From a candidate division FCPU426 bacterium (GTDB lineage: Bacteria; Oederibacteriota; PGYV01; Palsa-1178): a DNA stretch of 40,411 nucleotides. Positions 2,955-27,500 of this stretch are shown in pieces (position 1 is the first letter of the stretch; each line of letters opens with the position of its first letter). The stretch spans positions 1-40,411 of the forward strand of contig PMTB01000268.1 in the NCBI GenBank assembly GCA_003167475.1, in the 5' to 3' direction. Made by a program: the position numbers and the translations under genes. The notes below the pieces were generated by a model. That model searched no databases. It had not been told where the DNA came from and was given only the letters and a program-made list of their open reading frames with translations.

Positions 2955-3704
2955 ATGCGTAAAATCGCGGTTTCAGTATTATGTCTTTTATTTTCGGTTC
3001 CGGTTTTTGCAGGCATCGTGGTCAAACCTTTTGGGGGTTATACCACGGTTTCCATGGCGCGTGTAAACAGCGCTTTGGACGGCCTTTATAACTCATCGAC
3101 GTTTGACGGGCTTAATAAAAGCAGGACAAATTTCAGGGATGCCTATCTTGCCGGGCTTGACCTGGGGTATTCATTCATACCAGGGTTGGACGTTTGTTTA
3201 AGGGGCGAGTACATCGGGGCCTATTCGGAATTAAAAGGTAAAAATCCTTCGCCCCCGCCTGACAACCTCGTTTATTCATTTCCGGCCGATATCATGCCCG
3301 TACTTGCCGGTGTTTCCTATACTTATGGTTTTTCCGGATCACCTTTTTCAATAGGCGCGGAAGCTTACGCGGGTTATGGTTTCGCGCACCTGGCTTTGAC
3401 TCAGACTGAAGACGCTTATGACGGCACCTACTCGGTCAAATTCACGGCGCCGACATACGGGGGCGGGTTTGTGCTCGATTCGGCGGTAAAATTCGGCTAT
3501 GCCATATCCAGCATGATAAACCTGAACCTCACGGCCGGTTACAGACAGGCAAAAGTAAGTTATGTAAAATCCTTAAAAGACACAATAGGTTCGTCCATGT
3601 TCACATTTGCCAAGGACGAGGTCATAAAGGGTCCGGACGGCAAGGATCTGAACCTTGATTTCGGCGGATTGATCCTGAACATAGCATTAGGCTTAAACTT
3701 TTAA
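2955..3704 (+). CDS. Outer-membrane beta-barrel protein, paralog 1
   Basis: Signal peptide MRKIAVSVLCLLFSVPVFAG, FGGYTTVSMARVNSALD, Gly/aromatic alternation, C-terminal LGLNF; SD AGGGAGG. Confidence 0.8.
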   Translation: MRKIAVSVLCLLFSVPVFAGIVVKPFGGYTTVSMARVNSALDGLYNSSTFDGLNKSRTNFRDAYLAGLDLGYSFIPGLDVCLRGEYIGAYSELKGKNPSPPPDNLVYSFPADIMPVLAGVSYTYGFSGSPFSIGAEAYAGYGFAHLALTQTEDAYDGTYSVKFTAPTYGGGFVLDSAVKFGYAISSMINLNLTAGYRQAKVSYVKSLKDTIGSSMFTFAKDEVIKGPDGKDLNLDFGGLILNIALGLNF

Positions 3705-3721: not shown

Positions 3722-4471
3722 ATGAAAAAAATAATATTTGCCGGGCTCCTCGCAGCCCTTTCTGCAGCGCAGGTTTTTGCCGGTTTTACTTTAACGCCTT
3801 TCGGCGGTTATACAAGTGTTTCCATGGCACAGCTAAATCACAGGCTGGACTATATCAAAACCTCGATGTTTGGTTCTTCCTCACTTAAGGATAAAAAAGT
3901 AAGTTATTTTCACGACGCGTGGTCAGCCGGGCTTGACGCGGGGTATGATTTTTTTTCCGGCTTTTCAGCGGGCTTAAGGTCGGAGTTCATCGGGTCAGGC
4001 GGATATGTGTATGCCAGGACCATCGCAAGCGTCACGGAGAAGTCCGGCGTTGACGCGAACCTCATACCTGTTATGGCGGGCATATCCTATATGCTCAACT
4101 GGAAGGGCTGCCCTTTCACCATCGGCGCCGACGCATACGCGGGAGTGGGATTCGGCAAAGGCGGATTTTTCCTTAATTATTATGACAGGGACAACCTTGA
4201 AAACCTTTCCATATATGTGCCCATGAGCGGAAATTGCCTTGTTCTTGACGGCGCGCTCAAGGCCGCTTATTCTTTCGGCAGAATGTTCTCCATAAACCTT
4301 TCCTGCGGTTACAGGCAGGCGAAGTTCGATAAGATATTCTGCGATAAGGACGGAACCGCTTATAACGCAAACTGGCAAAAGGGCAAGGAAGCAAAAACAT
4401 TGACCGGCGCGACGCTGGCCCCTGATTTTTCGGGGCTTACAGCAAAACTCGGCGGAAATATAAGTTTCTGA
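3722..4471 (+). CDS. Outer-membrane beta-barrel protein, paralog 2
   Basis: Same length (249 aa) as the preceding gene; shared GGYTSVSMAQLNHRLD, GxAGYG(F), CGYRQAKF, C-terminal GGNISF; SD AAGGAGG. Confidence 0.8.
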   Translation: MKKIIFAGLLAALSAAQVFAGFTLTPFGGYTSVSMAQLNHRLDYIKTSMFGSSSLKDKKVSYFHDAWSAGLDAGYDFFSGFSAGLRSEFIGSGGYVYARTIASVTEKSGVDANLIPVMAGISYMLNWKGCPFTIGADAYAGVGFGKGGFFLNYYDRDNLENLSIYVPMSGNCLVLDGALKAAYSFGRMFSINLSCGYRQAKFDKIFCDKDGTAYNANWQKGKEAKTLTGATLAPDFSGLTAKLGGNISF

Positions 4472-4541: not shown

Positions 4542-5363
4542 ATGAAAAAAATTTGCGCCGCGATTTTAATAATTACAGCCATGATAGCCGCCTTGTCCTG
4601 CGGCTGTAAAAGCAATGCCTCGCCTTCTTCTGCCGGACCGGAAGGAACCGCTACCATTACTCCGACTTTTACGGCAGTGCCGTCACCCGGAACTTTTTCA
4701 GGGACTATAACCGGGTTAAGCAATGACCAGGCCGGAAAAAATCTGTATATCACACTCGATATGGACCTGGATTACGCGGACGGCTACGCCGCAAGGCTGA
4801 CGTTAACGGCCTCTTCCGGCACGTCCATTGCGTACAGTTTCCCGCAGGTTGCCGGAGGGCATTATAATGTCTCGGCCTGGATAGACATGGACTCCAACAC
4901 CATACCGGGAGTGGCCGATTATTACGGGAGTTACGGCGCAACATATCCCGCAATGCCGGCCGTGCAAAATGTGGAAATAAACGGCGACACGGCGGGAATA
5001 GACATAACTGTCGTGAAATTGACAGCCAATGTCAGCGGGACAATAACATTCCCCGGAGACGCGGCGGGAAAAAAATACATTGTGGCCATTGACAACGATA
5101 ATGTGGGGACCAACGGCGGGCAGAGGACCTATTACTCTGATTATTGTGCAACCCCCGGACCCACGACAGCCGTCAATTACAGTTTGTGCGTGCCTTTTCC
5201 CATGAATAATTTCACGGTTTACTGCCTTGTATCCATGAACGGGCATTTACTGGCAACCGGCAAAGAATCCGGCGATTATGTGAATTTTGTGCCGGGAAAC
5301 AACCTTGCTGACCCGGCTTTTCCTGTCAGCCCGATAAATTTCTCCCTCATTAAGATGCCGTAG
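4542..5363 (+). CDS. Lipoprotein with short Thr/Pro linker and two related Ig/carboxypeptidase-regulatory-like repeats
   Basis: Lipobox IAALSCG/C; linker TATITPTFTAVPSPGT; internal repeats GTITGLSNDQAGKNLYITLDMDLD and GTITFPGDAAGKKYIVAIDNDNV. Confidence 0.7.
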   Translation: MKKICAAILIITAMIAALSCGCKSNASPSSAGPEGTATITPTFTAVPSPGTFSGTITGLSNDQAGKNLYITLDMDLDYADGYAARLTLTASSGTSIAYSFPQVAGGHYNVSAWIDMDSNTIPGVADYYGSYGATYPAMPAVQNVEINGDTAGIDITVVKLTANVSGTITFPGDAAGKKYIVAIDNDNVGTNGGQRTYYSDYCATPGPTTAVNYSLCVPFPMNNFTVYCLVSMNGHLLATGKESGDYVNFVPGNNLADPAFPVSPINFSLIKMP

Positions 5364-7031: not shown

Positions 7032-7811
7032 ATGAAAAAGTCATTTTTGTTCCTGTTTTTGGCATTGACCTCAGCTTTTCTTGCCGTGATCGTGCCCGGA
7101 TGTTCCAAAGGCACACCCTCATCCCCGAACTCCACTGACACTCCGGTGATAATCCTTAACACACATACCATAACTCCGACATGGACCAATTCTCCTGCCG
7201 TATCGCACACGAATACGCCCACCATCACCCAGACCGCCACTATTTCACCCACAAGCACTTCTACACCTTCCGGTTATATCGTGGATAATTTCGAGTCGGG
7301 CGTGGACAACTGGACCACTGCAAAAGACGGCGGCAGCCTGTCCAACATACATACCGGGATAGTCGGCTCGCCCAATGCCGGCTTATACGGCTCATACGCG
7401 CTCGGAGTGACCGGCGAGGCATGGGCTGAGACAGGTTCCTACTTCGGGTTTTCCAGCGCGCAGAAAACTTTCGGGCCGGTTGATCTAAGTGCTTACGCAA
7501 CGCTAGACCTTGCGGCTTCGGAAAAGATCACATTCACCCCATTATACGGAGGAAGTGTGGTTTATAAGGTGAAAATACAGAGCGGCGCAAACCTGATAGA
7601 AACAACAATCCCGGCTCCGGCCGCTTCAATGGCAAACGTATCTTTGCCGCTTACGGGTTTCACGCTCCCATCAGGGGCCGGCGGTTACACGGCTGCGTCG
7701 GTCCTGGCAAACGCTGACGGGATAATAATCGAGGTTGATATGGTTTCAGGGGTGCAAAACGATTGGATAGGGTATGAGATATACCTTGATAATATCGAAT
7801 TCAAAATGTAG
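7032..7811 (+). CDS. Lipoprotein: Thr/Pro linker + carbohydrate-binding/jelly-roll-like domain
   Basis: Lipobox VIVPGC; linker NTHTITPTWTNSPAVSHTNTPTITQTATISPTSTSTP; VDNFESGVDNWTT start and YLDNIEFKM end; SD GGGAGG. Confidence 0.7.
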   Translation: MKKSFLFLFLALTSAFLAVIVPGCSKGTPSSPNSTDTPVIILNTHTITPTWTNSPAVSHTNTPTITQTATISPTSTSTPSGYIVDNFESGVDNWTTAKDGGSLSNIHTGIVGSPNAGLYGSYALGVTGEAWAETGSYFGFSSAQKTFGPVDLSAYATLDLAASEKITFTPLYGGSVVYKVKIQSGANLIETTIPAPAASMANVSLPLTGFTLPSGAGGYTAASVLANADGIIIEVDMVSGVQNDWIGYEIYLDNIEFKM

Positions 7812-8639: not shown

Positions 8640-8689
8640 GTTTATAAGCCGAAATATTGAAAATATTGGTATGAATATTGCTTATAAAC
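8640..8689. promoter_or_regulatory. Candidate operator/promoter region of the giant surface gene
   Basis: Perfect 10-bp inverted repeat GTTTATAAGC (8640-8649)/GCTTATAAAC (8680-8689) with three AATATTG motifs between or overlapping; TATAAT at 8696-8701. Confidence 0.45.
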
Positions 8690-8734
8690 TTATGGTATAA
8701 TTATTTATATCCTCAGCTGAAAGGAAAGAAACAT

Positions 8735-11700
8735 TTGAAAAATAACACTAAAACCGGCAGGCTGCTTTCATCCAATCAGTTGTTTTTTATGTTTTTGTCC
8801 TTGCTGTTATTTTTACCTGTTTTATCATCCGCGACAACCTGGACCAATGTCGGCTCCCCAGGGTTTTCAGTTGGCACTTCGAACTATCCCACGCTTAAAG
8901 TTTACAACAGCGTCCCTTATGTATCTTTCATGGACGCGGCCAGCAACTCGAAAACATCGGTCATGAGGTATTTGGCCGGTTCCTGGCAGTATGTGGGCGC
9001 CCCCGGAATATCAGCCGGCACGTCGCAGTATGTTTCAATGGATATAGACCAGGCAAACGGGAACATATATATAGCCTATCAGGACAGCGCAAATGGAAAC
9101 AGGCTCAGTGTTATGAAATATGACGGGACCTCGTGGGGTTATGTCGGGGCCCCGGGATTTTCTTCCGGCGCGGTATATGTGGCGCTGCCTTTTGTGCGTA
9201 ATGGAATTCTTTATGTTTTTTGCGACGACAACCAGGGGTCAGTATATAAATTTAACGGGTCCAGCTGGGCGCTGGCGGCGCCGCAGGGATTTATCACAAG
9301 CGCTTCGGACTATTCTTTTTTTGTGGCTGACGATCTCACCATGTATGCCGCGTACAAGGATTTTAACAACTCGAGCAAAATATCCGTGCAAAAATCAAGC
9401 GGTTTGTCCTGGACCTATGTCGGCGGCTCGCCGGGCATCACGCCCGGGGCGGCGCAGGCAAGTTCAATATGGATAGATAACGGGACGCCCTACCTGGCGT
9501 ACTCGGACCAGCTTAACGCAAGCAGACTTTCCGTGATGAAGTTTGACGGCTCGTCGTGGGGATATGTCGGAGCGCAGGATTTTTCAGGGGCGGCCGCGTC
9601 TTTTGTTTCGCTGTTTATGTACAACGGGACCCCGTTTGTCGGGTTTCAGGACAGCGCGAACGGGAACGGTGCTTCTGTCATGAAATTTGACGGGACTTCA
9701 TGGGGATATGTGGGCACACCGGGATTCTCGGCAGGCCTTGTATGGTTCACTTCGCTTTACGTGAACCTCGGAACGCCCATCATCGCGTATATGGACAACG
9801 CGTACAGCGCCATGGATACGGTCATGAGTTACGGGCCGTTGACGGGGGTGGATACTCCCACTTTTACTTGCACCATAACACCCACGCCGACTTCCACGGG
9901 CACGCAGTGCGTACTTCTGCCTGTGTCGACAATAACCTATCCGGGAACGGCTTTCACAAACAGCGCTTCGTATATTTCAGGAACCGCCTTTGCGGCCTGC
10001 GGCACCATCACGCAGGTTGACGTTTCAATATATTCGGCTCCGCTCGGCCAGTACTGGAACGGTCTCACATGGCAGGCCGTGCAGTTCTGGGTTCCGGCAA
10101 CGGTCGCAATAGGATGGATATATAATTTTACGCCGCCGTCCGACGGGCAGTACACGATACGCAGCAGGGCTCACGATTCTTCAGGCAATATAGAAATTCC
10201 CGGCGCGGGTATAATGCTCAACTACGACCACACTGTCCCGTTATCTGTCATTACTTCGCCTTCAAACAATGTTTACTACAACACCATCCCGCCGAATTTC
10301 GCCGGCACAGCGGCTGATACGGGTTCGGGAGTGGGGAAAGTACGCCTAATGCTTTACAACATAACCAATGACGTATACTGGGACGGCTCCAGTTGGATAC
10401 CGTTCGCGACCCAGTGGTTTGACGCGTCAGGGACGAACAGCTGGTTTTATTCCTCGGCCAATCCCGGATGGACATCCGGAAGCTACGATTTCGCGTCCGA
10501 GGCAGTGGATAATGCGGGGAACACCCAGGCCACACTGACAACAGGGGTGAACCACATTAGTTTTATTTTTGACAACACCGCGCCCGCAAGCGCGATAAGT
10601 TATCCCATAAACTCATCCACGCTCCCGAGCCTGACAAATATTTCCGGAACGGTTACGGAGAACACAGACGGAAGCGGATTATCGACATCCGGTGACGCTT
10701 TGCAAATATATATATATAACCTCACGGATAACGTCTACTACGACGGCGTCAGCGGTTGGACAGCGGCCCAGACATGGATAAACACAAACGTATTATGCAC
10801 AGCCTGCGTATCAAGCGGATGGACCTACGCCGTATCTGACTCCATCTGGATCTCCGGGAAAACATACCAGATAATGGCAAGGGGAAAAGACAAGCTTGGA
10901 AATACGGAAACAACAGGCGCATGGGTGGATTTTACGTTCCTTCCGCTTACTGCGACGTATACTGTCACAATTACCCCTACATTTACACAGACACCGACCC
11001 GTACCGTGACCCCGACACTAACCATAACGCCCACGTCCTGCGTGAGGCTTGACACTTCTTTTAACGGAACAGGGTTCGTGACACTCAACGGCGGCGGGAC
11101 GGGCGGGTCCGCAAATGATTTTGGTTTTGACCTGAAACTGGACGGATCCGGCCGCATAATTTTAGCCGGAGTCCGGTATAACGGGACAAATGGCGATATG
11201 GCCCTCTGGAGGTTTAACAGCAACGGGACATTGGACACCACCTTCAACGGAGGCGCCGGCTATGTGATGAACAACGGCACGGCCGGTGGAAATGGAGCCG
11301 ACGCAGCCAATGCTGTTGTAATAGATTCTTCAGGCAGGCTCGTCGCCTGCGGGTACAGCACAAATGCCACCGCTTATCAGAGCATGGTTATATGGAGGTA
11401 TAATAGCGACGGCACGCCGGATACATCTTTTAACGGAACGGGTTATATCACGCGCAGCGGCACGGCTGGAGGAACGGCAAGTGACGGCGGAACGGACCTG
11501 AAGATTGACAGGCTTGGCAGAATAACGGTATGCGGTTACAGCACAGCTTTGAGCGGGGATACATACATGGCAATCTGGAGATATTTAAGCGACGGCACCC
11601 CAGATACATCGTTCAACGGTACGGGTTTTGTGACGAACCACAACGCGGCCGGCGGTAACGGTTCGGACTACGGGAGCGCCATGGCAATTGACGCCAGTGA

Positions 11701-14700
11701 CAGGATAATAGTAACCGGATTTTCCGACGAGCAGCCGGGAGGGGGGCATAATTTCGACATGACAGTCTGGAGATATAATCCGGACGGGACCATAGACACC
11801 ACATTCGGCGCGGGGAACGGGTATATGACCCATAATAACGCGGCCGGAGCGAACAGTGATGACCGTGGAAATTCCGTTATCATAGATAATTCCGGGAATA
11901 TTGTGGTGGGCGGCGCTTCCGCCAAAAGCGGAGCCCTGACAGCCATGGCTGTATGGAGGCTTCTGCCGAACGGACAGCTTGATAGCACTTTCAACGGACT
12001 CGGTTACGCGGTCATGTCGGTCAGTTCTTCAAATGACGCCGCGAACGCAGTTGCCATAGACGCTAACAACAGGATAGTTCTCGCAGGAATAGTCTTTAAT
12101 CCGGCGGCAGGTTATGACCTGGCTATATGGAGGTACAATAATGACGGCACTCCTGATACGACATTTAGTTACAACGGATACGTGACGCATAACAGCGCGG
12201 CTGGAGGCAACGGCAGCGATGAAGTGTCGGGCCTGGCAATCGACGCGCAAAACAGGATAGTAGCCGGGGGAGACTCGGTGAGCGTTTCCAACAGCTATGA
12301 TGTGGCCGTTTGGCGCTATACGGACAACTGTTCCGTGTTCAATACGCCGACACGCACGGCCACTTCCGCAACGTCAGCAACGCCGACCAATTCAGTTACT
12401 GCAACCATGACTTCCACTCCGGCGGCCCTGCCAAACGCCGGGAATTCATGGACCATGGCCGCGTGCTCGGCTCCGTTCGCGGACAGGAGCGCTTTCGGTT
12501 TTGCTTCATATAACGGCCTGATGTGGGTTGCGGGCGGTACTTCGGGCGGCACGCCTTACCAGGATGTGTGGAACACTTCCGACGGCATCAACTGGAACCT
12601 TGTAACCGCAACTGCGTCCTGGCAGGCGCGAAGCGGGTTTGCCATGCTGCCGTTTAACGGAAAACTTTACATAATTGGCGGCGTCGGCGGGATGGGATAC
12701 ACAAGCGAAGTATGGTCCACCTTAAACGGAACAACATGGAACCTTGAAACAACGGCTCCTTTCACAGGCAGGGACGGATTCACTGCCGTGGTATATAATA
12801 ATGAAATCTGGGTCATAGGCGGGTTCGGGCCGCCGACCGGGCTGAAAAATGACGTGTGGCATTCAGCTAACGGGGTGGACTGGACTTTAGCCACGGGCAA
12901 CGCGGCTTTTGGGCCGAGGTCGGGGCATACGAGCGTGGTAATGAACGGCTTTATGTGGGTGATAGCCGGGGCCAACAGCACGCAGCAGGTAAATGACGTG
13001 TGGTATTCATCCGACGGAGCGGCATGGACCCGGATGACGAACTCCGCTGGATTTGCAATAAGGGAAGGCCACGCGAGCGTGGTATATGACGGGAAGATGT
13101 GGGTCATAGGAGGACAGAGCGGCAACGGCACAAACGAATATAACGACGCGTGGTACTCTTCAACAGGCGGGGTATGGACAGCGGCGACAGCCGGCGGAGG
13201 TTTTGAAACGCGCAGCGGGCTTGGGGCGGATATTTTCAACAATCAGATATGGATAGCCGGCGGATATCATGATTCAAACGGCGCTTATTTGAATGACGTG
13301 TGGTATTCACCTCTTGCCGGGACCGTGACACCGGTAAATACCTGCCCTCCCGCGTCAACATATACATTTACGGCCACCAGCACGCGGACGAACACCATTA
13401 TACCAACGCTCACGCATACGGTCACGCCCTCGCTCACCCCCACGCCGGGCGCGCCGCCGTGCAAGACGTTCCTTAATTACGCGGGCAACGAATGGCTCGG
13501 CAGGACATTTGGCAACGCCAATGCGGCGGCAGTCGGGCCGAATAATTACACTTACGTTATCCTGCCCGGGCAGGTGCTTGTTTATGATGAATTCGGATTT
13601 TATAATTCCTCGTTCGGCGCGACCGGGTTCGGCAACGGCGGATTCAATAATGCGATGGGAATAGCAGTGGACGCATCCGGTAATATATATGTGGCCGACC
13701 AGGAGAACAGCCTGATACAAAAATTCGGGCCGGCCGGGAATTTTATAACGCAGTGGGGCGGATTGGGCTTGGGAGACGGGCAGCTTGACCAGCCTGACGG
13801 CGTGGCCGTGGATAACATCGGAAATATATATGTGGCCGACACGGGCAATAACAGGGTGGAAAAATTCACTAACACAGGGGTGTTTATCCTGAAGTACGGC
13901 TCAGCCGGGACCGCCATAATGCAGTTTGATTCGCCGCAGACTTTGGCCTGCGACGCCGCGGGCAATGTGTATGTCACCGATACGAACAATAACAGGGTGC
14001 AGAAGTTCAGCTCAACCGGAGTTTTCATCACAACATGGGGCGCGAACGGGTCCGCTGCCGGGCAGTTCATCAATGAGCACGGTATTTGCGTCGACGCAGG
14101 CGGCAACGTGGTTGTCAATGACAGGGGAAACAACAGGTTTGAAGTATTTGACACTAACGGCGGATTTATAAGGCAGTTTGGCGCCTTTGGCGACGCTGCC
14201 GGGCAGTTTGACGATGTCAGGGGCATAACGATGGACAATTCCGGAAATATCATAGTTGTCGACCAGGCCCCGAACATGCTTGAGTGGTTCGACATTAACG
14301 GCAATTATTTGAAAAAAGTCGGGAATGCGGACAATGCGCCCGGCAATACCATCAGGCCTTTTGGGCTTGCTTCCGGCGGGACGGGATTCCTTTACTTTAC
14401 AAATGACTCGGATTTTTACATACAAAAGTTTGCCCTGTCAGGCGCCTATATAGGCACGATCGGCAGCGGTTCAGGAAGCGGCAACGGGCAGTTCAATAGC
14501 CCCAGGGGCCTTGCGGTCGACGCGGCAGGCAACGTGTACGCGGTGGACCAGTCGAATTTCAGGGTACAGAAATTTTCCAGCGCGGGAGCGTTCCTGCTGA
14601 AGTTCGGCAGCCAGGGCACGGCTAACGGCCAGTTCAAAACCGCGCAGTATCTGGCGTTGGACGCTTCGGGGAATATATATGTGACTGACAATGACAGCGC

Positions 14701-17700
14701 GCTCAACAGGGTGCAGAAGTTCAGCCCCGCTGGCGTTTATATCACACAGTGGGGCGGCTTAGGAGGCGGCAACGGGAAGTTTAATTCGCCGGCCGGCATT
14801 GCGGTGGACGCGGCAGGGTATGTGTATGTGGCGGACCAGTATAATGACAGGGTTCAAAAATTTGACGCGAACGGGGTTTATATTTCGCAGTGGGCAGTGC
14901 CGGGCGCGCCCGTGGGGCTGGCGGCTGATATTTCCGGCAACATATGGGTATGCGACACGGACAACATGAACATAAATAAATATTCACCTGCCGGCGTCCT
15001 GCTTGATACCATAACCGGCGGCAAAGGCGAGGCTCCGGGCCAGTTTAACGCATTAAACGCGGTAGCGGTAAGCAACAACGGCGACATATACGCCGGTGAT
15101 TATTGGGCATGCAGGGTCGCGCATTATTACTGCTCCATGCCCGCGGCAACCGCCACATTTACCGGTACATACACGGTCACCATGACAATAACGCCGAGCG
15201 TGACACCGTCGTGTACGATGACTTTTACAGCCACCCCGACCGCGACATTTACCGGGACAATTACCAATACGTTCACAAATACCCAGGTTACATCGACCTT
15301 TACGCCGTCTTCCACGCGGACATCCACCTTTACACAGTCTTCAACGGTAAGCCCGACATTTACCATAACGCAGACATGGACAACTCTGCCGGTTGCGACC
15401 GCAACCTCAACGCCGAACGGGTTGTACACGCTTGCCGGAAATATAATAACCGACGGATATCTAAACGCGGTGACAGCCGATTCTTCAGGGGTGTTCCTCG
15501 GGGGCCTGTTCAATTATATCGGGCCGCGGACCGGTCAGGGAATTTCGCTCAATAAAAATACCGGCACAGCGGTTGCGGGTATGCCGGAGATAGCCGGCGG
15601 CGGGTCTTACGGCGTCGACACAGTCGTGCCGGACGGCGTTGGCGGATGGTACATAGGAGGCGACTTCACATCTGTCGCGGGCCAGCCAAGGGCGCACATC
15701 GCGCATATACTTTCCAATGGCGTGCTTGACGCGCAGTTCAACCCCGGAGCGAACGGGACCGTCATAGTACTAGCTCTTGACGGTAACGGCAATATATTTG
15801 CCGGAGGATTCTTTACCGTCATAGGGAGTCAGAACAGGAACCTAATAGCAAAATTAAACGCGGTGACAGGGGCGGTCAACGGCAGCTTTAACCCGGCGCC
15901 TGTCGGCAGTTATGTGCAGTCACTGGCGCTTGATACGGCCGGGAATATTTACGTGGGCGGAACATTTACGAACATAGCCGGCCAGAATATAAACTACCTG
16001 GCGAAACTTAACGCTGCAAACGGAGTTGCGGACACGGGGTTCAACGCGAACCCGAACGCCACGGCGCACTCAATACTTCTCGACGGCTTGGGAAGCCTGT
16101 ATGTTGCCGGAGATTTTACAACAATTGGAGGGCAGGCATATTACGGTCTCGCCAAAGTTGACGCGGAGACAGGTCTTGCGGACACCAACTTTACGCCCGT
16201 GGTCGATAATATAATGCAGACAATGGTTTTGGACGGCAGCGGCAATTTGTTTATCGGAGGCTGGTTCACCCATGTGAACGGCTCAGTCAGGAATTACATA
16301 GCCAAGATAAACGCCTCAACTGGCGCGCTTGACGGCTCATTCAATCCCGGGGCGGACAATCCGGTGTATCCGCTGGCTCTTGACGGCTCCGGAAATATAT
16401 ACATCGGCGGATCGTTCACAAACATGGGCGGGTCCCCCAGGGGCCGCATAGCCAAGGTAAACGCCTCAAACGGAAGTGTTGACCCGTCATTTACACCATA
16501 CGCGGACAACAATGTGTCGGCAATAGCCTTTGACGGAAGCGGGAATGTTTTTGTCGGTGGGCTTTTCAACTCGATCGGCGGGTATGCCAGGCAGAACATC
16601 GCGAGACTGCACGCTGCGGACCTGTCCGTGGATACGGCTTTCAACATCAATTGCAATAATGAAGTGCTTTGCCTGCTGCTGCAGGGAAGCGACAATCTTT
16701 TTGTCGGCGGAAAATTCACAACCATAGCGTCGAGCGCGAGGCTTAATGTCGCGAAAATAAATGCCTTGAGCGGGGCGGCGGACGGAAGTTTCAATCCCGG
16801 CGCCGGCGCGTGGGTTTATTCCATGGCCATTGACCAGTCCGGGAATATTTACCTGGGCGGGCTTTTCACCATGATAAACAGCGTGGTGAGGCCGCATGTG
16901 GCAAAACTCAGCGCCTCAAATGGCGCCGTAGACGGGACTTTCAGCGCAATAGGCGCTGATTCGACGGTATTTTCCCTAGCCCTTGACCCAAGCGGCAGCC
17001 TTTACGTTGGCGGGATATTCAGCAATATAGGCGGCCTTTCCAGGAACTCACTTGCCAAAATAGATATGGGCAGCGGCAACGCTGACCCGGCTTTCAATGC
17101 GACGGCGCCAGTGGGTATAACTGTTGCGGCGCTCGCGCTTGACGGCGGCGGAAATATTTACGCTGCAGGCACATTCGCCTCCATCGGCGGCATAGCCAGG
17201 AGCGATATCGCCAGACTAAACGCAACAACAGGCTCGGGCGACGCGTCATTCACAATAAACTCGGACAATTCCGTGAATACCCTTTTAACGGATGGTTTCG
17301 GGGATATATACGCGGGCGGCAATTTCGGGGCCATGGGCGGTCAGGCCATATCTTACCTGGATAAAATAGCGATGTCATCCGGCACGGTGGACACAACTTT
17401 TAACATGGCCGTTAACAATCATGTAAACTCCATATATTTCTCGCCGGACAAGACCACGCTTTACGTTGGCGGTAATTTTACATCCATGCAGGGGAAACCC
17501 GCGGCCAATTTCGCGGCCATACACATGCTCGCGGGGATAGCGACGCCCACGTCGACATTTACAAAGACATTCACCGTGTCCCCGACACATACTTTTACCA
17601 GGACAGCCTCACCGACATATACAGCCACAGCCACGTCCACTCCGACATACACGGCCACGAACACCCCAACCCCTACCTTTACGGCCACGGATACGGCGAC

Positions 17701-18274
17701 ATCGACGCCCACGTTCACATCCACTTCAACCCGCACGGATACTAACACATCCACATATACGCCGACATTTACCATGACTTTCACGGACACGCAAACTTAT
17801 ACGGCAACTCCGACATTTACCGGGACATTTACATTTACGGCCACGGCGACGGCGACAGGGACAATGACCGCGACCCCGACATATACTGATACGCCGCTGC
17901 CCACGGATACTTTCACGATAACGCAGACCTGGACGGTAACTTTGACCGCGACCATAACGCCGACATTCACAAACACGCCCACGCCGTACGTGGACATAGC
18001 CATAGACCGGAACTATGTACAGCCGGGCAAAGGGGAAACAGTCAATATAAAGATCAATGCCGGCGCCATAGGCGTGGAAGTCACGGCGAAGATATATAAC
18101 CTTACAGGCGAATTCCTGAAGGAAATAAAATATACCACCACAGCCGTAGGCTGGAACGACATCAACTGGGACGTCAAAAACGCGGCCGGAAAAACAGTGG
18201 GGCAGGGGATTTACTTTATTCACATAAAGAACGGTTCTCAGAGCGTGATACGGAAGGTATTTGTTTTGAAGTAA
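8735..18274 (+). CDS. Giant multi-propeller secreted protein with Thr-rich linkers and FlgD-like C-terminus
   Basis: ORF 8678-18274. A TTG start at 8735 after AAGGAAAG fits the signal peptide NQLFFMFLSLLLFLPVLSSA better; the 8678 ATG lies inside an inverted repeat upstream of the TATAAT box. Modules: WGYVGxPGFS repeats, Ig-like x3, delta-60 (LDTSFNGTG), Kelch-like (NDVWYSSDGxxW), NHL-like, GGxFTxIGG repeats, then FlgD-like IYNLTGEFLKE...WDVKNAAGKTVGQGIYFIHI. Confidence 0.85.
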   Translation: MKNNTKTGRLLSSNQLFFMFLSLLLFLPVLSSATTWTNVGSPGFSVGTSNYPTLKVYNSVPYVSFMDAASNSKTSVMRYLAGSWQYVGAPGISAGTSQYVSMDIDQANGNIYIAYQDSANGNRLSVMKYDGTSWGYVGAPGFSSGAVYVALPFVRNGILYVFCDDNQGSVYKFNGSSWALAAPQGFITSASDYSFFVADDLTMYAAYKDFNNSSKISVQKSSGLSWTYVGGSPGITPGAAQASSIWIDNGTPYLAYSDQLNASRLSVMKFDGSSWGYVGAQDFSGAAASFVSLFMYNGTPFVGFQDSANGNGASVMKFDGTSWGYVGTPGFSAGLVWFTSLYVNLGTPIIAYMDNAYSAMDTVMSYGPLTGVDTPTFTCTITPTPTSTGTQCVLLPVSTITYPGTAFTNSASYISGTAFAACGTITQVDVSIYSAPLGQYWNGLTWQAVQFWVPATVAIGWIYNFTPPSDGQYTIRSRAHDSSGNIEIPGAGIMLNYDHTVPLSVITSPSNNVYYNTIPPNFAGTAADTGSGVGKVRLMLYNITNDVYWDGSSWIPFATQWFDASGTNSWFYSSANPGWTSGSYDFASEAVDNAGNTQATLTTGVNHISFIFDNTAPASAISYPINSSTLPSLTNISGTVTENTDGSGLSTSGDALQIYIYNLTDNVYYDGVSGWTAAQTWINTNVLCTACVSSGWTYAVSDSIWISGKTYQIMARGKDKLGNTETTGAWVDFTFLPLTATYTVTITPTFTQTPTRTVTPTLTITPTSCVRLDTSFNGTGFVTLNGGGTGGSANDFGFDLKLDGSGRIILAGVRYNGTNGDMALWRFNSNGTLDTTFNGGAGYVMNNGTAGGNGADAANAVVIDSSGRLVACGYSTNATAYQSMVIWRYNSDGTPDTSFNGTGYITRSGTAGGTASDGGTDLKIDRLGRITVCGYSTALSGDTYMAIWRYLSDGTPDTSFNGTGFVTNHNAAGGNGSDYGSAMAIDASDRIIVTGFSDEQPGGGHNFDMTVWRYNPDGTIDTTFGAGNGYMTHNNAAGANSDDRGNSVIIDNSGNIVVGGASAKSGALTAMAVWRLLPNGQLDSTFNGLGYAVMSVSSSNDAANAVAIDANNRIVLAGIVFNPAAGYDLAIWRYNNDGTPDTTFSYNGYVTHNSAAGGNGSDEVSGLAIDAQNRIVAGGDSVSVSNSYDVAVWRYTDNCSVFNTPTRTATSATSATPTNSVTATMTSTPAALPNAGNSWTMAACSAPFADRSAFGFASYNGLMWVAGGTSGGTPYQDVWNTSDGINWNLVTATASWQARSGFAMLPFNGKLYIIGGVGGMGYTSEVWSTLNGTTWNLETTAPFTGRDGFTAVVYNNEIWVIGGFGPPTGLKNDVWHSANGVDWTLATGNAAFGPRSGHTSVVMNGFMWVIAGANSTQQVNDVWYSSDGAAWTRMTNSAGFAIREGHASVVYDGKMWVIGGQSGNGTNEYNDAWYSSTGGVWTAATAGGGFETRSGLGADIFNNQIWIAGGYHDSNGAYLNDVWYSPLAGTVTPVNTCPPASTYTFTATSTRTNTIIPTLTHTVTPSLTPTPGAPPCKTFLNYAGNEWLGRTFGNANAAAVGPNNYTYVILPGQVLVYDEFGFYNSSFGATGFGNGGFNNAMGIAVDASGNIYVADQENSLIQKFGPAGNFITQWGGLGLGDGQLDQPDGVAVDNIGNIYVADTGNNRVEKFTNTGVFILKYGSAGTAIMQFDSPQTLACDAAGNVYVTDTNNNRVQKFSSTGVFITTWGANGSAAGQFINEHGICVDAGGNVVVNDRGNNRFEVFDTNGGFIRQFGAFGDAAGQFDDVRGITMDNSGNIIVVDQAPNMLEWFDINGNYLKKVGNADNAPGNTIRPFGLASGGTGFLYFTNDSDFYIQKFALSGAYIGTIGSGSGSGNGQFNSPRGLAVDAAGNVYAVDQSNFRVQKFSSAGAFLLKFGSQGTANGQFKTAQYLALDASGNIYVTDNDSALNRVQKFSPAGVYITQWGGLGGGNGKFNSPAGIAVDAAGYVYVADQYNDRVQKFDANGVYISQWAVPGAPVGLAADISGNIWVCDTDNMNINKYSPAGVLLDTITGGKGEAPGQFNALNAVAVSNNGDIYAGDYWACRVAHYYCSMPAATATFTGTYTVTMTITPSVTPSCTMTFTATPTATFTGTITNTFTNTQVTSTFTPSSTRTSTFTQSSTVSPTFTITQTWTTLPVATATSTPNGLYTLAGNIITDGYLNAVTADSSGVFLGGLFNYIGPRTGQGISLNKNTGTAVAGMPEIAGGGSYGVDTVVPDGVGGWYIGGDFTSVAGQPRAHIAHILSNGVLDAQFNPGANGTVIVLALDGNGNIFAGGFFTVIGSQNRNLIAKLNAVTGAVNGSFNPAPVGSYVQSLALDTAGNIYVGGTFTNIAGQNINYLAKLNAANGVADTGFNANPNATAHSILLDGLGSLYVAGDFTTIGGQAYYGLAKVDAETGLADTNFTPVVDNIMQTMVLDGSGNLFIGGWFTHVNGSVRNYIAKINASTGALDGSFNPGADNPVYPLALDGSGNIYIGGSFTNMGGSPRGRIAKVNASNGSVDPSFTPYADNNVSAIAFDGSGNVFVGGLFNSIGGYARQNIARLHAADLSVDTAFNINCNNEVLCLLLQGSDNLFVGGKFTTIASSARLNVAKINALSGAADGSFNPGAGAWVYSMAIDQSGNIYLGGLFTMINSVVRPHVAKLSASNGAVDGTFSAIGADSTVFSLALDPSGSLYVGGIFSNIGGLSRNSLAKIDMGSGNADPAFNATAPVGITVAALALDGGGNIYAAGTFASIGGIARSDIARLNATTGSGDASFTINSDNSVNTLLTDGFGDIYAGGNFGAMGGQAISYLDKIAMSSGTVDTTFNMAVNNHVNSIYFSPDKTTLYVGGNFTSMQGKPAANFAAIHMLAGIATPTSTFTKTFTVSPTHTFTRTASPTYTATATSTPTYTATNTPTPTFTATDTATSTPTFTSTSTRTDTNTSTYTPTFTMTFTDTQTYTATPTFTGTFTFTATATATGTMTATPTYTDTPLPTDTFTITQTWTVTLTATITPTFTNTPTPYVDIAIDRNYVQPGKGETVNIKINAGAIGVEVTAKIYNLTGEFLKEIKYTTTAVGWNDINWDVKNAAGKTVGQGIYFIHIKNGSQSVIRKVFVLK

Positions 18275-18278
18275 GCTG

Positions 18279-18330
18279 TGGGTGTAGCGGCGCATATAAT
18301 GCGCCAGCCTTTTGACTGCCCGCGGTGTGT
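18279..18330 (+). repeat. Dispersed palindromic repeat, copy 2 (downstream of giant gene, inverted)
   Basis: TGGGTGTAGCGGCGCATATAATGCGCCAGCCTTTTGACTGCCCGCGGTGTGT; reverse-complement match to 8493-8544; also begins TGTAG + palindrome. Confidence 0.75.
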
Positions 18331-18365
18331 TAGTAATTCCGCATAACAAAGTAAAAGGGGTGTTT

Positions 18366-19124
18366 ATGGCCAACAACAAAAAAACAGCCGTCATTACAGG
18401 CGGGGCGCAGGGTATAGGGCTTTGTCATGTGAAGGAGTTTTTGAAATCCGGATACAATGTTGCCTGCGCGGACCCGGATAAAGAGGCCGGGATTGAAATG
18501 ATGAAAGCCTTAAAGGCGGGCAAAAAACTTTTTTATTCCGATTGCGATGTTTCATCAGAAAAAGAAGCAATAAAATTCATAGGTTCGGCCATAAGGAAAT
18601 TTAACGGCATAGACGTCCTAATAAACAACGCGGGAATAGGGATAAATAAACCTGTCACGGAGCTGACGCTCAAGGAATGGAACCGCGTCATCGGCGTAAA
18701 CCTGACGAGCGCATTTTTATGCGCAAAACATTCCGCAAAACACCTTGAAAAATCCGGCGGCGTCATCATAAATACCGCATCGACCAGGGCGATTATGTCC
18801 GAAAAAAACACCGAAGCATACTCAGCCACCAAAGGCGGTATACTCGCCCTTACCCACGCGCTTGCCGTGAGCCTGGGGCCGAAGATAAGGGTGAACAGCA
18901 TCAGCCCGGGGTGGATAGAGGTTTCCGACTGGAAAAAGAAAAAGGATTTCAAAATACCGGTCCATTCGGAAGCGGACAAAAGCCAGCATCCCGCGGGCAG
19001 GGTTGGGACGCCGTATGATATATCAAAACTCGCGTTGTTTCTTGCATCGGAAGACGCGGGATTCATAACCGGGCAGAACTTCGTGGTGGACGGCGGCATG
19101 ACGAAAAAAATGATATATGTGTGA
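18366..19124 (+). CDS. SDR-family oxidoreductase
   Basis: ITGGAQGIG cofactor motif, NNAGIG, YSATKGG catalytic motif, C-terminal FITGQNFVVDGGMT. ATG at 18366 after AAAAGGGG preferred over 18312. Confidence 0.9.
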   Translation: MANNKKTAVITGGAQGIGLCHVKEFLKSGYNVACADPDKEAGIEMMKALKAGKKLFYSDCDVSSEKEAIKFIGSAIRKFNGIDVLINNAGIGINKPVTELTLKEWNRVIGVNLTSAFLCAKHSAKHLEKSGGVIINTASTRAIMSEKNTEAYSATKGGILALTHALAVSLGPKIRVNSISPGWIEVSDWKKKKDFKIPVHSEADKSQHPAGRVGTPYDISKLALFLASEDAGFITGQNFVVDGGMTKKMIYV

Positions 19125-19380: not shown

Positions 19381-19968
19381 ATGAAAAGAATATTAATTAT
19401 CGCGGTGTTGGCCCTTGCCTTATCCGCGTCCTGCAAGAATGCCGCAAACCCTACGGGCCCTTTTGCGGCCGCCACTTTTTACAGTTTTGACTCCTCGCTT
19501 GACGGCTGGAACAGTATGGGAACAGCCAATGAAACGCTCTCCATTAATACTGACGCGGCATATATCAAGGCCGGGGCAGGGTCGGTGAAATGCACGGCCA
19601 CTCTTTCTTCAACCGGATCCAAAGCCATCATATTCTATAAAGCCTTTGGTACCAACCAGAGCCTGACAAGCCGGACAGTCACTCTCTGGGTGTACGTCCC
19701 AGTGGCTTTGTCTGCAATGAGCCCCGGATATTACATAGACCTGAATATCAAAAGGTCGAGTATGCCCAATCCCGACACAATTTACGGACCTGCCCTTAAC
19801 ACATCAGGATGGAAAAGCTGCACGTATACCATACCGGCATATTCTTCCGACGGGAACGTCACGCATGATTATTCCGACGTGACAATGATGTATTTCATCG
19901 TCGAAAATACCGGCCAAACGCCGGCCGACTGGACAGGGGATTTATACTTCGACGAGCTCAGCTGGTAA
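19381..19968 (+). CDS. Lipoprotein with jelly-roll/carbohydrate-binding-like domain
   Basis: Lipobox LALSASC; YSFDSSLDGWNSMG start and LYFDELSW end resemble the domains at 7032 and 20449. Confidence 0.6.
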   Translation: MKRILIIAVLALALSASCKNAANPTGPFAAATFYSFDSSLDGWNSMGTANETLSINTDAAYIKAGAGSVKCTATLSSTGSKAIIFYKAFGTNQSLTSRTVTLWVYVPVALSAMSPGYYIDLNIKRSSMPNPDTIYGPALNTSGWKSCTYTIPAYSSDGNVTHDYSDVTMMYFIVENTGQTPADWTGDLYFDELSW

Positions 19969-20448: not shown

Positions 20449-22971
20449 ATGATTTTAGACGCTATCTATTCAGGCATACAGAAAAGGACATTTCCCAGGG
20501 CGATATTCGGTTGCTTATTTCTGATTCTTTTTTTTCCCGCTTTAACCCGGGCTGCCATCATTAACGGTGATTTTGAAAATGGTATGACGGGTTGGACCGT
20601 CACCACTCAATATGTCAGCGCGACCGCCCTCAGCACAAACTCAGTAGGCGATAAATTTCCATACGCGACAACCATAACCCCCGGCGTCGCCCCGTATTCC
20701 ACAAACATGACGTCCGGGGCGTTTCTTAACGATGTATATGCCGGAAATTATTCAGCCAAATTATTTTCCGGTTACGGGGAAAACGGGAGGGTCGACTGGT
20801 CGAGGATACAGCAGACCGCGGCCGTGCCGGACGGGTACTGTTACCTGGAGGTATATCTTGCAATGGTCCTGCCGGGATACCATCTTACGCAGGGCCAGCC
20901 GAACGACGACCCTTATGTGGAATTTGATGTGTTTAACAGCACTACGGGAGCCACCCTTTATAGCAAAACCTACAGGTTTGGAGACCCGGCGCTGCAGCCT
21001 TTGTTGATCGACGGCAATACAACAACCGCGTCAGGAGGGCCGTTTAAGTTCCTGCCGTGGACAAGGATATTGATAGACCTTACTGCATTCAGCGGACAGA
21101 CAATCACCATAGCCTTTACCGCCAACAAGTGCGCCCAGACCGAGCATTTTTCATACGCTTACCTTGACAATGTGAGTTTCCTTCCGTGCAACACGCCTAC
21201 TGTGACCAAAACAGTGACGCCGACCAGGACCATTACAAGGACAATAACCCCGACAAATACAATAACCCGGACCGTCACGCCGACATTTACGCCGAGCTTT
21301 ACAGTGACAGTTACGGTTACAGTTACCGTCACAAAAACTTTTACCCCGACCTTCACACCCACTTTTACCGTGACATACACGCCGACCTTCACCGTGACCA
21401 AAACCCCCACTCCCACCTTCACGCCGACCTTTACGGTGACTTTTACCAGGACAGATACCCCAACTTTGAGCCCGACCGTAAGCAAAACAATTACGCCCAC
21501 TGTCACAGCAACGCCGACGTACACGGACACCGTTACTTCCACTCCTACGTTCACGGCCACACCGACTTTTACCATGACCTTTACCCAGACCGACACGCGG
21601 ACTTTTACGCCCACATTTACGGCCACGCCGACGTTCACCATGACCTTCACGCTGACCGATACGCCCACATCCACGCCCACATTCACCTGTACTAGTACAA
21701 TGACCGCCACCCCGACTCAGACCCCCACGTCTACTTTTACAATGACATTCACGGATACATACACATGCACGGACACAAAAACAAATACTCCGACTTTTAC
21801 GTCAACTCCGACCTTTACGGAGACGTTTACATTCACAAACACGCCAACATTCACGGCCACTTATACATCCACATTCACAAGCACCGCGACGCCGAGTTTC
21901 ACCCCCACATTTACGCAGACCTCAACCGCGACAATAACGCGCACGGTTACGGACACAAATACCCCGCCGCCGTCGCCCACTATCACGCCTACGCCGCTTA
22001 AAGGCGGATATCTGATCACTATAAAGGTTTACAATGAAGCCGGCGAAGTGGTCCGCACGATAGCCGTACTGCCGTCATATGACCCCATTACAAACATCAT
22101 TACAAGCATAAACGGGGACACGGGCGCTACGGCAATCGGCTACGGCGGGATAATGAACATATTACTGCCCGGTGTGGGATTGAACGGGTCGGACGTGAAT
22201 ATTACATGGGACGCGAAAACAGACGGCGGGCAGTACGCGGCATCAGGGTCCTACTCGATCAGGGTCGAGCAGGTTGACACGTATAACCGCGAAAAAGATA
22301 CGATTATCCAGGTCACGGTGATAAGAAATGAAACATACATACAAATGAACGTTTATAACAGCGCGGGCGAGCTGGTAAGGCAGGTCACAAATTATGACTT
22401 TGTCATGCCCCCTGATTTTACGCCCGGTCCCGGGGTCGGCGTGAATATGGATATTCCGCCCCTGGTAATTTCCAACAAAGGTGACCCGTCCACGGTGCAG
22501 ATAAGGTTCGGGTCCGCGACCGAAGACTTCATGCTATGGGACGGGAAGAACAATTTCGGTCAAGCGGTCTCAAGCGGTGTGTATGAGGTAAAAATCGTTA
22601 TTAAAACCGAATCATTGCTGATAACCGTCGCCACGGACAGCGTGACCGTTTTAAAAGAGGACAGTGTGATATTAAGCAACCTGAAGGCCGTGCCGAGCCC
22701 GTATGACGGCACCGGGCCGGGCATAGAACTTCGTTGGGATTCCGGGTTGACAGGCGAAGTTACCGTAAATATTTATAATTTAAACGGCGAGGTTGTGCGC
22801 GTAATGCACGAGAAACTTGAAAGCACGAGTGCCATGTGGGATATCAGGACCTCCAGCGGCAATCTTGTATCAAATGGTATATATATAGCAGTGCTGCAGG
22901 GAATTTCGTACGACGGAAACAGGGGAACCAGGAAGTTGAAAATAGCGGTTAACAGGAGGACAGGGCTGTAG
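20449..22971 (+). CDS. Threonine-rich stalk surface protein with N-terminal jelly-roll-like domain and three FlgD-like C-terminal repeats
   Basis: [14 protein letters not shown]...[10 protein letters not shown], then ~270 aa of alternating Thr, then three VYNxxGEvVR ... WDgk..G....sGxY repeats. Confidence 0.85.
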
Positions 22972-23545: not shown

Positions 23546-23571
23546 AAATTTTCGCTCAAGCGAAAATTTGG
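23546..23571. terminator. Hairpin just after tRNA-Lys (processing signal or terminator)
   Basis: AAATTTTCGCT-CA-AGCGAAAATTT stem; no long U tract follows. Confidence 0.4.
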
Positions 23572-23745
23572 AGCAAGTGAGCAGATTGACACGCCTTCGT
23601 TAATACTTTGGCGTGCGAGCCAGTTGAGCAGGTTGACAAACAAGGCTTTTGCGAACCTGCGGTCAAACTGCTCAATCTGTTTAATCTGCTCAGGTTCAGG
23701 TTTGTTTGAAAACAGAAGACGGAACATACATAAGGAGGCTTTACA
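23572..23745 (+). promoter_or_regulatory. Structured rplU (L21) leader
   Basis: TGAGCAGATT(23577)/AATCTGCTCA(23683) and TTGAGCAGGTTGAC(23624)/GTCAAACTGCTCAA(23662) can pair, as can alternative combinations; ACGCC..GGCGT inner hairpin; AAGGAGG before ATG. Confidence 0.5.
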
Positions 23746-24057
23746 ATGTACGCAGTGGTTGAGATCGGCGGGAAGCAGTACAAGATGGCTGAAGGCCAGG
23801 TGGTAAAAGTCGAACAGATTATCGGAGTTGGCAAAGAAGTCACTTTTGACAGTGTTCTTTTAATAGCCACAGAAGGCGAGATCAAGGTTGGCAAGCCCAA
23901 ACTTGAGAACGTTAAGATAGTTTGCCAGGTTTTGGACGCGGAAGTGAAAGGCGAAAAGTTCATGGTTTTCAAATGGAGGCGCAGGAAGAACTCCAAGAAA
24001 CGCATGGGCCACAGGAGAAAATTCACGGTGCTCAAGGTAAAATCAATACAACTGTAG
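23746..24057 (+). CDS. rplU: 50S ribosomal protein L21
   Basis: MYAVVEIGGKQYKMAEGQVVKVEQI...KWRRRKNSKKRMGHRRKFTVLKV. Confidence 0.97.
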   Translation: MYAVVEIGGKQYKMAEGQVVKVEQIIGVGKEVTFDSVLLIATEGEIKVGKPKLENVKIVCQVLDAEVKGEKFMVFKWRRRKNSKKRMGHRRKFTVLKVKSIQL

Positions 24058-24104
24058 AAATAACAGTTTAAATTTAAAAATCAGGTTAGGATGGTGAAGC
24101 TCAA

Positions 24105-26246: not shown

Positions 26247-27500
26247 ATGTTCATAGATCACTCAAAGATAAAAGTCATATCAGGCAAGGGCGGGGACGGG
26301 GCCAATACTTTCCGGCACGAAAAATTCACCCCCAAGGGCGGTCCTGACGGCGGGGACGGCGGAAGGGGCGGGCATATCATATTTGAATCCGACAGGAACA
26401 TGACCACCCTTATTGATTTCCATAATAACAAACAGTTTAAAGCCAAAGAAGGCGGCAAGGGATTCGGGTCAAAAATGCACGGCAGGAACGCGGAAGATAT
26501 TACCCTGAGAGTGCCGCTGGGGACCATGATAAAGGATACCAGGACCGGGCTGCTGATCAAGGACATGACTACGGACAAGGAAACATTTATAGTGGCAAAA
26601 GGCGGCCGGGGCGGCAGGGGTAACTGGCATTTCAGAACATCCACAAGACAGGCGCCGACATTCTATGAAAAAGGCGAGCCTGTTGAGGAAAAGGAAATAA
26701 CCCTTGAGCTTAAGATCATGGCGGACGTCGGGATCATCGGGATGGCGAACGCGGGCAAGTCGACTTTATTGTCAAAGATATCGAACGCGCACCCGAAGAT
26801 AGCCGACTATCCTTTCACTACGCTCTCCCCGGTGCTCGGAATAGTAAAATACGGGGATGTGGACTCTTTCGTGGTAGCCGACATTCCCGGCCTTATAGAG
26901 GGAGCTTCCCACGGCAAGGGCCTCGGGTTTGATTTTTTAAGGCATATCGAAAGGACGAGGCTTTACATACACGTGGTGGACCCGACCCAGGGCAACGCGT
27001 ACAGGAATTATATAATGATCAACAAGGAATTGAAAGCATACGATAAAAAACTTATAAAAAGGCCGCAGATAGTCGTGGTCAATAAGACGGAACTGCTCAG
27101 CCCAAAGGAAATAAAGCAGATCAAGGCTGATTTTAAGAAAAAGAAGATAGAGATCGACATGATATCGGCCAAAAATAATGTGGGGCTGGACAAAGTGCTG
27201 CATAAAGTCTACAAATTGTTCAAAAAACTCGAGCCTTTGCCGGAGGAAATGCCGCAGGCCATACCCGAAGTGCAGGACAAATTATGGCTTGAAAAAGAGG
27301 ACGAGGGAGTTTATATTTTAAGGAGCGTCAAGGTTGAGCGTTTTGTCTCCATGCTGGATTTTAAATCCGACGAGACGCTGCTGGTCTTCAGGAAATACCT
27401 GGAAAAAGAGGGCCTGAATGATTTCTTCAGGCATAACGGAGTGGAACCCGGGGACGCGATAATCATCGGGGATAAGGAATTTGTATACGAGGAAGGATAG
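26247..27500 (+). CDS. obgE: GTPase ObgE/CgtA
   Basis: MFIDHSKIKVISGKGGDGANTFRHEKFTPKGGPDGGDGGRGG; G1 GMANAGKST, DIPGLIEGA, NKTE. Confidence 0.96.
   Translation: MFIDHSKIKVISGKGGDGANTFRHEKFTPKGGPDGGDGGRGGHIIFESDRNMTTLIDFHNNKQFKAKEGGKGFGSKMHGRNAEDITLRVPLGTMIKDTRTGLLIKDMTTDKETFIVAKGGRGGRGNWHFRTSTRQAPTFYEKGEPVEEKEITLELKIMADVGIIGMANAGKSTLLSKISNAHPKIADYPFTTLSPVLGIVKYGDVDSFVVADIPGLIEGASHGKGLGFDFLRHIERTRLYIHVVDPTQGNAYRNYIMINKELKAYDKKLIKRPQIVVVNKTELLSPKEIKQIKADFKKKKIEIDMISAKNNVGLDKVLHKVYKLFKKLEPLPEEMPQAIPEVQDKLWLEKEDEGVYILRSVKVERFVSMLDFKSDETLLVFRKYLEKEGLNDFFRHNGVEPGDAIIIGDKEFVYEEG

Follow-up and report, generated by a model that had tools for sequence, protein, structure and literature searches.

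The closest described counterparts of the protein analysed here are SprB and RemA of Flavobacterium johnsoniae, T9SS adhesins of the Bacteroidota whose ectodomains are large and repetitive or lectin-like. They share with it a large ectodomain as well as SprA and shuttle-type proteins in the genome, and probably also a Sec-type start and a C-terminal sorting domain, but the present protein is encoded in the uncultured phylum FCPU426, carries several propeller families in series, and contains Thr-rich linkers. SprB has a tail of type B and a PorP/SprF partner (PMC12618676), whereas the tail found here is of type A or FlgD_ig-like. Domain-shuffled bacterial adhesins are known from the Ag43-type autotransporters (PMC10058404), which likewise combine a conserved secretion part with exchanged passenger parts. 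They use, however, another secretion system, and the heads exchanged at the locus described here are unrelated in fold, ranging from ice-binding-like to propellers. FCPU426 is absent from the T9SS phyla as given by PMC11285876, and no report of T9SS or adhesins in FCPU426 was found in the literature searched (largely without subscription journals).

The protein seems rather likely to be a giant, stalked surface protein that T9SS displays and that carries several heads, which bind several ligands and are exchanged in front of a conserved anchor. Its novelty would lie in the unusual head set at a head-exchange locus, whereas a T9SS-type surface protein as such is of a known kind. The gene is located in the analysed window, a stretch of 40,411 nucleotides (contig PMTB01000268.1 of assembly GCA_003167475.1), where a reading frame without a stop extends across 8675-18274 as a single ORF (Table 1). 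The N-terminus has a basic stretch followed by a hydrophobic stretch, as judged by eye. The preliminary description had proposed one ORF with serial propeller-like blocks and Thr-rich linkers, which agrees with the single open frame and with the blocks as located by sequence, and its module borders match ours to within about 20 bases. The repeat counts of M1 to M6 are 7, 3, 7, 6, 12, and 14, some of them obtained by eye on the repeat units.

Table 1. Features of the focal gene, its neighbours, and the translocon gene of the same genome. Positions refer to the window unless a contig or locus is given.
Feature	Position	Strand	Basis or remark
Focal ORF	8735-18274	+	likely start TTG 8735, shortly 3' of GAAAGGAAAG; 3179 aa
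TTG start and signal-peptide-like N-terminus LKNNTKTGRLLSSNQLFFMFLSLLLFLPVLSSA	8735..8833	+	sequence
M1, seven WxYVGxPGFS-type repeats, predicted as one seven-bladed beta-propeller	8834..9844	+	AlphaFold2, PDB fold matches
Thr-rich linker 1, 27 aa	9842..9922	+	sequence
M2, three bacterial Ig-like domains, Big_13 at cut-off	9923..10942	+	Pfam
Thr-rich linker 2, 35 aa	10943..11047	+	sequence
M3, seven delta-60/DUF5122 repeats, probably one propeller	11048..12331	+	PF17164, TIGR02608
Thr-rich linker 3, 32 aa	12332..12427	+	sequence
M4, six Kelch repeats, probably one propeller	12428..13321	+	Kelch_1, PF24681
Thr-rich linker 4, 50 aa	13322..13471	+	sequence
M5, twelve NHL repeats, probably two six-bladed propellers	13472..15148	+	PF01436, spacing ~47
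Thr-rich linker 5, 88 aa	15155..15418	+	sequence
M6, fourteen GGxFTxIGG repeats (DUF5122 family), probably two seven-bladed propellers	15419..17536	+	Pfam, AlphaFold2, PDB
Thr-rich stalk, 153 residues, 46% Thr	17537..17995	+	sequence
C-terminal domain, T9SS sorting-tail/FlgD_ig-like, conserved putative anchor	about 17978..18271	+	Pfam; start overlaps stalk end
Short-chain dehydrogenase (SDR), downstream syntenic marker	18312..19124	+	84% identical in G001
Lipoprotein-like gene	19381..19968	+	syntenic in G001, 53%
Second Thr-stalk protein with FlgD_ig-like domains	20449..22971	+	syntenic in G001, 61%; in G003, 50%
Obg GTPase, landmark of the locus	26247..27500	+	93% in G001
SprA-like translocon gene, own genome	G000:C254:10377-16862; L112:1243-7728		

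On their own modules the repeat-unit models reach 331-796 bits, partly by construction, so that the real test lies in the other values, which stay at or below 7.2 bits for 100 shuffles of the same module and at or below 3.5 bits for each of the other modules. Because the unit models do not recognise each other's modules and shuffled sequences score low, the head blocks can be regarded as differing in sequence from one another, although M3 and M6 are both members of PF17164. The possibility that all propeller blocks are of one family, which had been raised as an objection in the preliminary description, is rejected by the same models. Its count of five sequence-distinct propeller-like modules stands for the blocks but not for the families, because M3 and M6 share PF17164 and the five blocks therefore represent four families. 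It also does not hold for the propellers themselves: with 12 repeats in M5 and 14 in M6, both blocks are long enough to form two propellers each and probably do, so that the five blocks would comprise about seven propellers.

M1 has no Pfam match at E 0.01 when searched as an isolated module. The AlphaFold2 model, computed with eight aligned relatives, is a confident seven-bladed propeller (pLDDT 93.7, pTM 0.91), in support of the propeller proposed in the preliminary description. Among solved structures, the folds nearest to it are those of the LGI1 EPTP propeller (TM ~0.7), the Photorhabdus PLL lectins, the Aleuria lectin, and Bacteroides glycoside hydrolases including BT3686. Judged from the model, M1 is a propeller family without a Pfam entry. 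M2 reaches Big_13 with 27.1 bits (cut-off 27). From their family membership M3, M4, and M5 are probably propellers as well: M3 matches PF17164 (DUF5122) with 161.3 bits (cut-off 27), TIGR02608 gives 234 bits when the whole protein is searched, M4 matches Kelch_1 with 95.2 bits (cut-off 20.1) and PF24681 with 95 bits, and M5 matches PF01436 (NHL) with 181.7 bits (cut-off 20) and is also hit by SGL and similar models, which overlap the NHL propeller. M6 matches PF17164 with 197.9 bits (cut-off 27) and is 66% identical over 729 aa to a protein of the relative G003. The best AlphaFold2 model of M6 has a mean pLDDT of 91.7, but the five models diverge, down to 66.8, and the PDB entries that it matches, with a low global TM, consist of two seven-bladed propellers in tandem; two propellers are thus likely from modelling. 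M3, M6, M4, and M5 exceed the curated cut-offs and in this respect agree with the known DUF5122/delta-60, Kelch, and NHL propellers. They differ from those in being combined in one chain, together with the Pfam-less M1.

Propeller proteins with a stalk are widespread in the phylum and numerous in the genome of the window. About a dozen other ORFs exceeding 2500 aa were examined, picked by similarity to the focal protein and not as a census; no more than two of the propeller families were found together in any of them, and all six blocks together are present in no other sampled protein. The serial collection of heads, which the preliminary description had considered unusual, is therefore the most mixed architecture in the sample, but the stalked, modular style is not special within the phylum. 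Thr-x-Thr linkers abound in the genome as well. The alternation is found at 764 + 670 places genome-wide (1434), compared to 0 + 6 for the reversed control pattern. In Bacteroidota the O-glycosylation motif is D-[ST]-[AILVMT]. All linkers and the stalk of the focal protein contain just one such motif, so that any glycosylation would need another motif.

The preliminary description had called the C-terminal domain FlgD-like. This is correct in so far as the isolated domain exceeds the cut-off of FlgD_ig (32.7 bits), but Por_Secre_tail (PF18962) is exceeded too (29.0 bits, both cut-offs 27), and the domain, predicted to be of beta-sandwich type, is better read as a T9SS-type sorting or anchor domain. 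On the whole focal protein PF18962 gives 23.0 bits (cut-off 27). Among the results that count against the T9SS reading, TIGR04183 reaches 21.5 bits on the focal protein (cut-off 23), and solved FlgD structures are closer in sequence to the tail than PorU is; the score of the own SprA just under its cut-off, the PorU and GldM results, and the lack of a PorV gene at the focal locus (all given below) count in the same direction. It could thus be that the tail is a generic Ig-like cap with an incidental T9SS likeness, and that the protein is brought to the surface in some other way. The slightly higher score on FlgD_ig than on Por_Secre_tail, the 45 FlgD_ig-like matches in the genome, some of which are not C-terminal, and the PorU model, which is over cut-off in none of the 25 genomes, would agree with this, as would the GldM model (0 of 25), for which no control matched either. 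We regard this explanation as unlikely: SprA is accompanied by many PorV-family proteins, both in the genome and in the phylum, models of PorU, PorZ, and T9SS-dependent peptidases match the C-terminal ends of such proteins, and the full-length FlgD model NF005176 is far from being reached by the focal protein (20.9 of 230 bits), the match being confined to the Ig-like part.

The SprA/Sov translocon homologue of the host genome is identified by TIGR04189 with 188.8 bits (E 1e-55), just under the equivalog cut-off of 200, and by 47% identity over nearly the whole length to the protein of G002. The SprA-like ORFs of the four relatives tested all score 216-264 bits on the same model. SprA is present in 41 of the 45 phylum genomes and in none of the 14 outside, with one main copy in nearly every phylum genome, and the SprA N-terminal model gives weak matches in single ORFs of ~2000 residues. 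The homologue of G002 has fibronectin III domains near its N-terminus. The PorV family (NF033709, cut-off 90) is represented by 33 copies in the own genome, the best with 167 bits, although the specific PorV equivalog is not reached there (65.5 of 250 bits). All 25 genomes tested (G000-G024) have family members over cut-off, with up to 63 copies in one relative. PorV-like genes directly adjoin Thr-stalk genes at several loci (L057, L106, L110); a PorV gene was looked for at the focal locus and none was found there. Thus, a phylum outside the list of PMC11285876 now combines SprA with a large PorV family and with tails of the T9SS type. G001 encodes a peptidase of the C25 type (gingipain/PorU-like) that contains Thr linkers as well as a T9SS-type tail (G001:C10:37702-39003; L041:8818-13341) and adjoins a GGxFT propeller stalk protein.

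The tail belongs to a tight group, whose members match it with E values of at most 2.6e-27, while the next tail among the C-terminal domains collected follows at 5e-12. A profile of the group scores above 100 bits in nine of the 14 genomes of the order, with one or two copies each, and more weakly in three more. From these profile matches and the gene order, the C-terminal anchor is conserved across the order and in the genus resides at one syntenic locus near rplU-obg-proB. In G001, the nearest relative and a member of the same genus, the orthologous gene is found at the same place, and rplU (named from sequence) lies between the second Thr-stalk gene and obg. In the window, the ORF at 23746-24057 is by its sequence the gene of ribosomal protein L21, and a conserved opposite-strand ORF (23559-24080) is a shadow of the L21 gene. 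The ORF of G001 has 921 residues, its head is Ice_binding (PF11999, 100 bits) and unrelated to the focal heads, and the alignment of the two proteins is limited to the last 95 residues, which are 67-68% identical. On the same anchor, G003 carries a 149-residue domain and M6, G002 and G004 have M3-type heads, G005 combines M3 and Kelch repeats in one gene and has Ig-like or DUF11-like material in others, and G006 has little beyond the stalk before the conserved anchor. Judged from these alignments, heads are replaced wholesale between relatives in front of the conserved anchor. In most relatives the anchor gene is paired, in tandem or nearly so, with a second stalk-protein gene whose tail is related (G005:C7, G013:C6, G010:C95, G002:C121, G001:C88, G004:C40, G006:C7; L198-L204, L047), and a search of the window's genome with the tail-group profile found no second anchor copy. 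Recent recombination at the linkers was considered as well and is unsupported, because no long exact repeats were found in the window and in the 383 kb of the same genome that were compared. The M1 head also occurs at the C-terminus of lipoprotein-like proteins of the same phylum (L080-L085, L087). These share the seven-repeat M1 head and a Thr stalk with the focal protein, but the stalk is N-terminal, the anchor is N-terminal and lipobox-like, and there is no sorting tail.

Tentatively, and with less confidence than in the nature of the protein itself, the rplU-obg-proB locus might be a standing display site of the order. A conserved T9SS anchor and stalk would remain in place there, whole heads (propeller arrays, ice-binding-like domains, Ig arrays) would be exchanged in frame via the Thr-codon linkers, and dozens of PorV-type shuttles would serve many such cargoes, in a phylum not so far credited with T9SS. 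With one anchor, one locus, and unrelated heads in close relatives, the locus offers a natural case in which gain and loss of binding heads in giant surface proteins are directly testable.

The genes to the left of the focal gene have no clear orthologues in G001 and those to the right are syntenic with it, so that synteny breaks at or just upstream of the focal gene. Therefore, a chimera of the assembly, in which two or more stalk proteins of the family were joined at Thr-codon repeats, has been retained as an explanation, as had already been envisaged in the preliminary description. The source genome (2.75 Mb, of the same family as G003) is distributed over 281 contigs, with the window on contig 250, and is 86.6% complete, and the combination of all six blocks is absent from every other sampled protein, both of which would fit such a join. 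On the other hand, no exact match of at least 27 bases exists between the ORF and 383 kb of its own genome (14%, chosen for related proteins) and none of at least 22 bases to the ORF elsewhere in the window, and accordingly no repeat of a size that could cause an assembly join was seen. Moreover, the reading frame is kept at all joints, a signal-like start and a tail occur once each, the order of linker, M6, stalk, and tail recurs in G003, and multi-head proteins of 2500-3700 aa exist in other genomes. The exact-repeat comparison, the frame, and the order in G003 are indirect tests and lend the chimeric join no support; we consider it very improbable.

If the protein is indeed displayed by T9SS, as the gene content suggests, it would be exported by Sec, its C-terminal domain would direct passage through the SprA translocon, and a shuttle of the PorV family would then take it over and fix it to the cell surface. 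The Thr stalk, which may be O-glycosylated, would keep the heads away from the cell. The heads would bind several different ligands, most likely extracellular glycans or proteins, and the overall role would be that of a multi-ligand adhesin or substrate-capture scaffold. The role in adhesion or polysaccharide binding that had been suggested for the heads is derived from the predicted folds, because no clearly catalytic family explains any module. Glycoside hydrolases such as BT3686 rank among the folds closest to M1, and the genome encodes many proteins built like the focal one, as might be expected if the heads were enzymes or formed a structural coat similar to a sheath or S-layer. However, the SGL-type matches on M5 overlap the NHL propeller, and the heads vary in family and number between relatives on the same anchor, which fits poorly to a uniform lattice. 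Enzymatic or coat-forming heads are therefore quite unlikely, and binding heads remain the preferred reading. Upstream of the focal gene, the window contains two lipoprotein-like genes with short Thr-rich stretches (4542-5363 and 7032-7811) and, in tandem, two apparently paralogous secreted proteins of 249 aa (2955-3704 and 3722-4471), which are possibly outer-membrane barrels.
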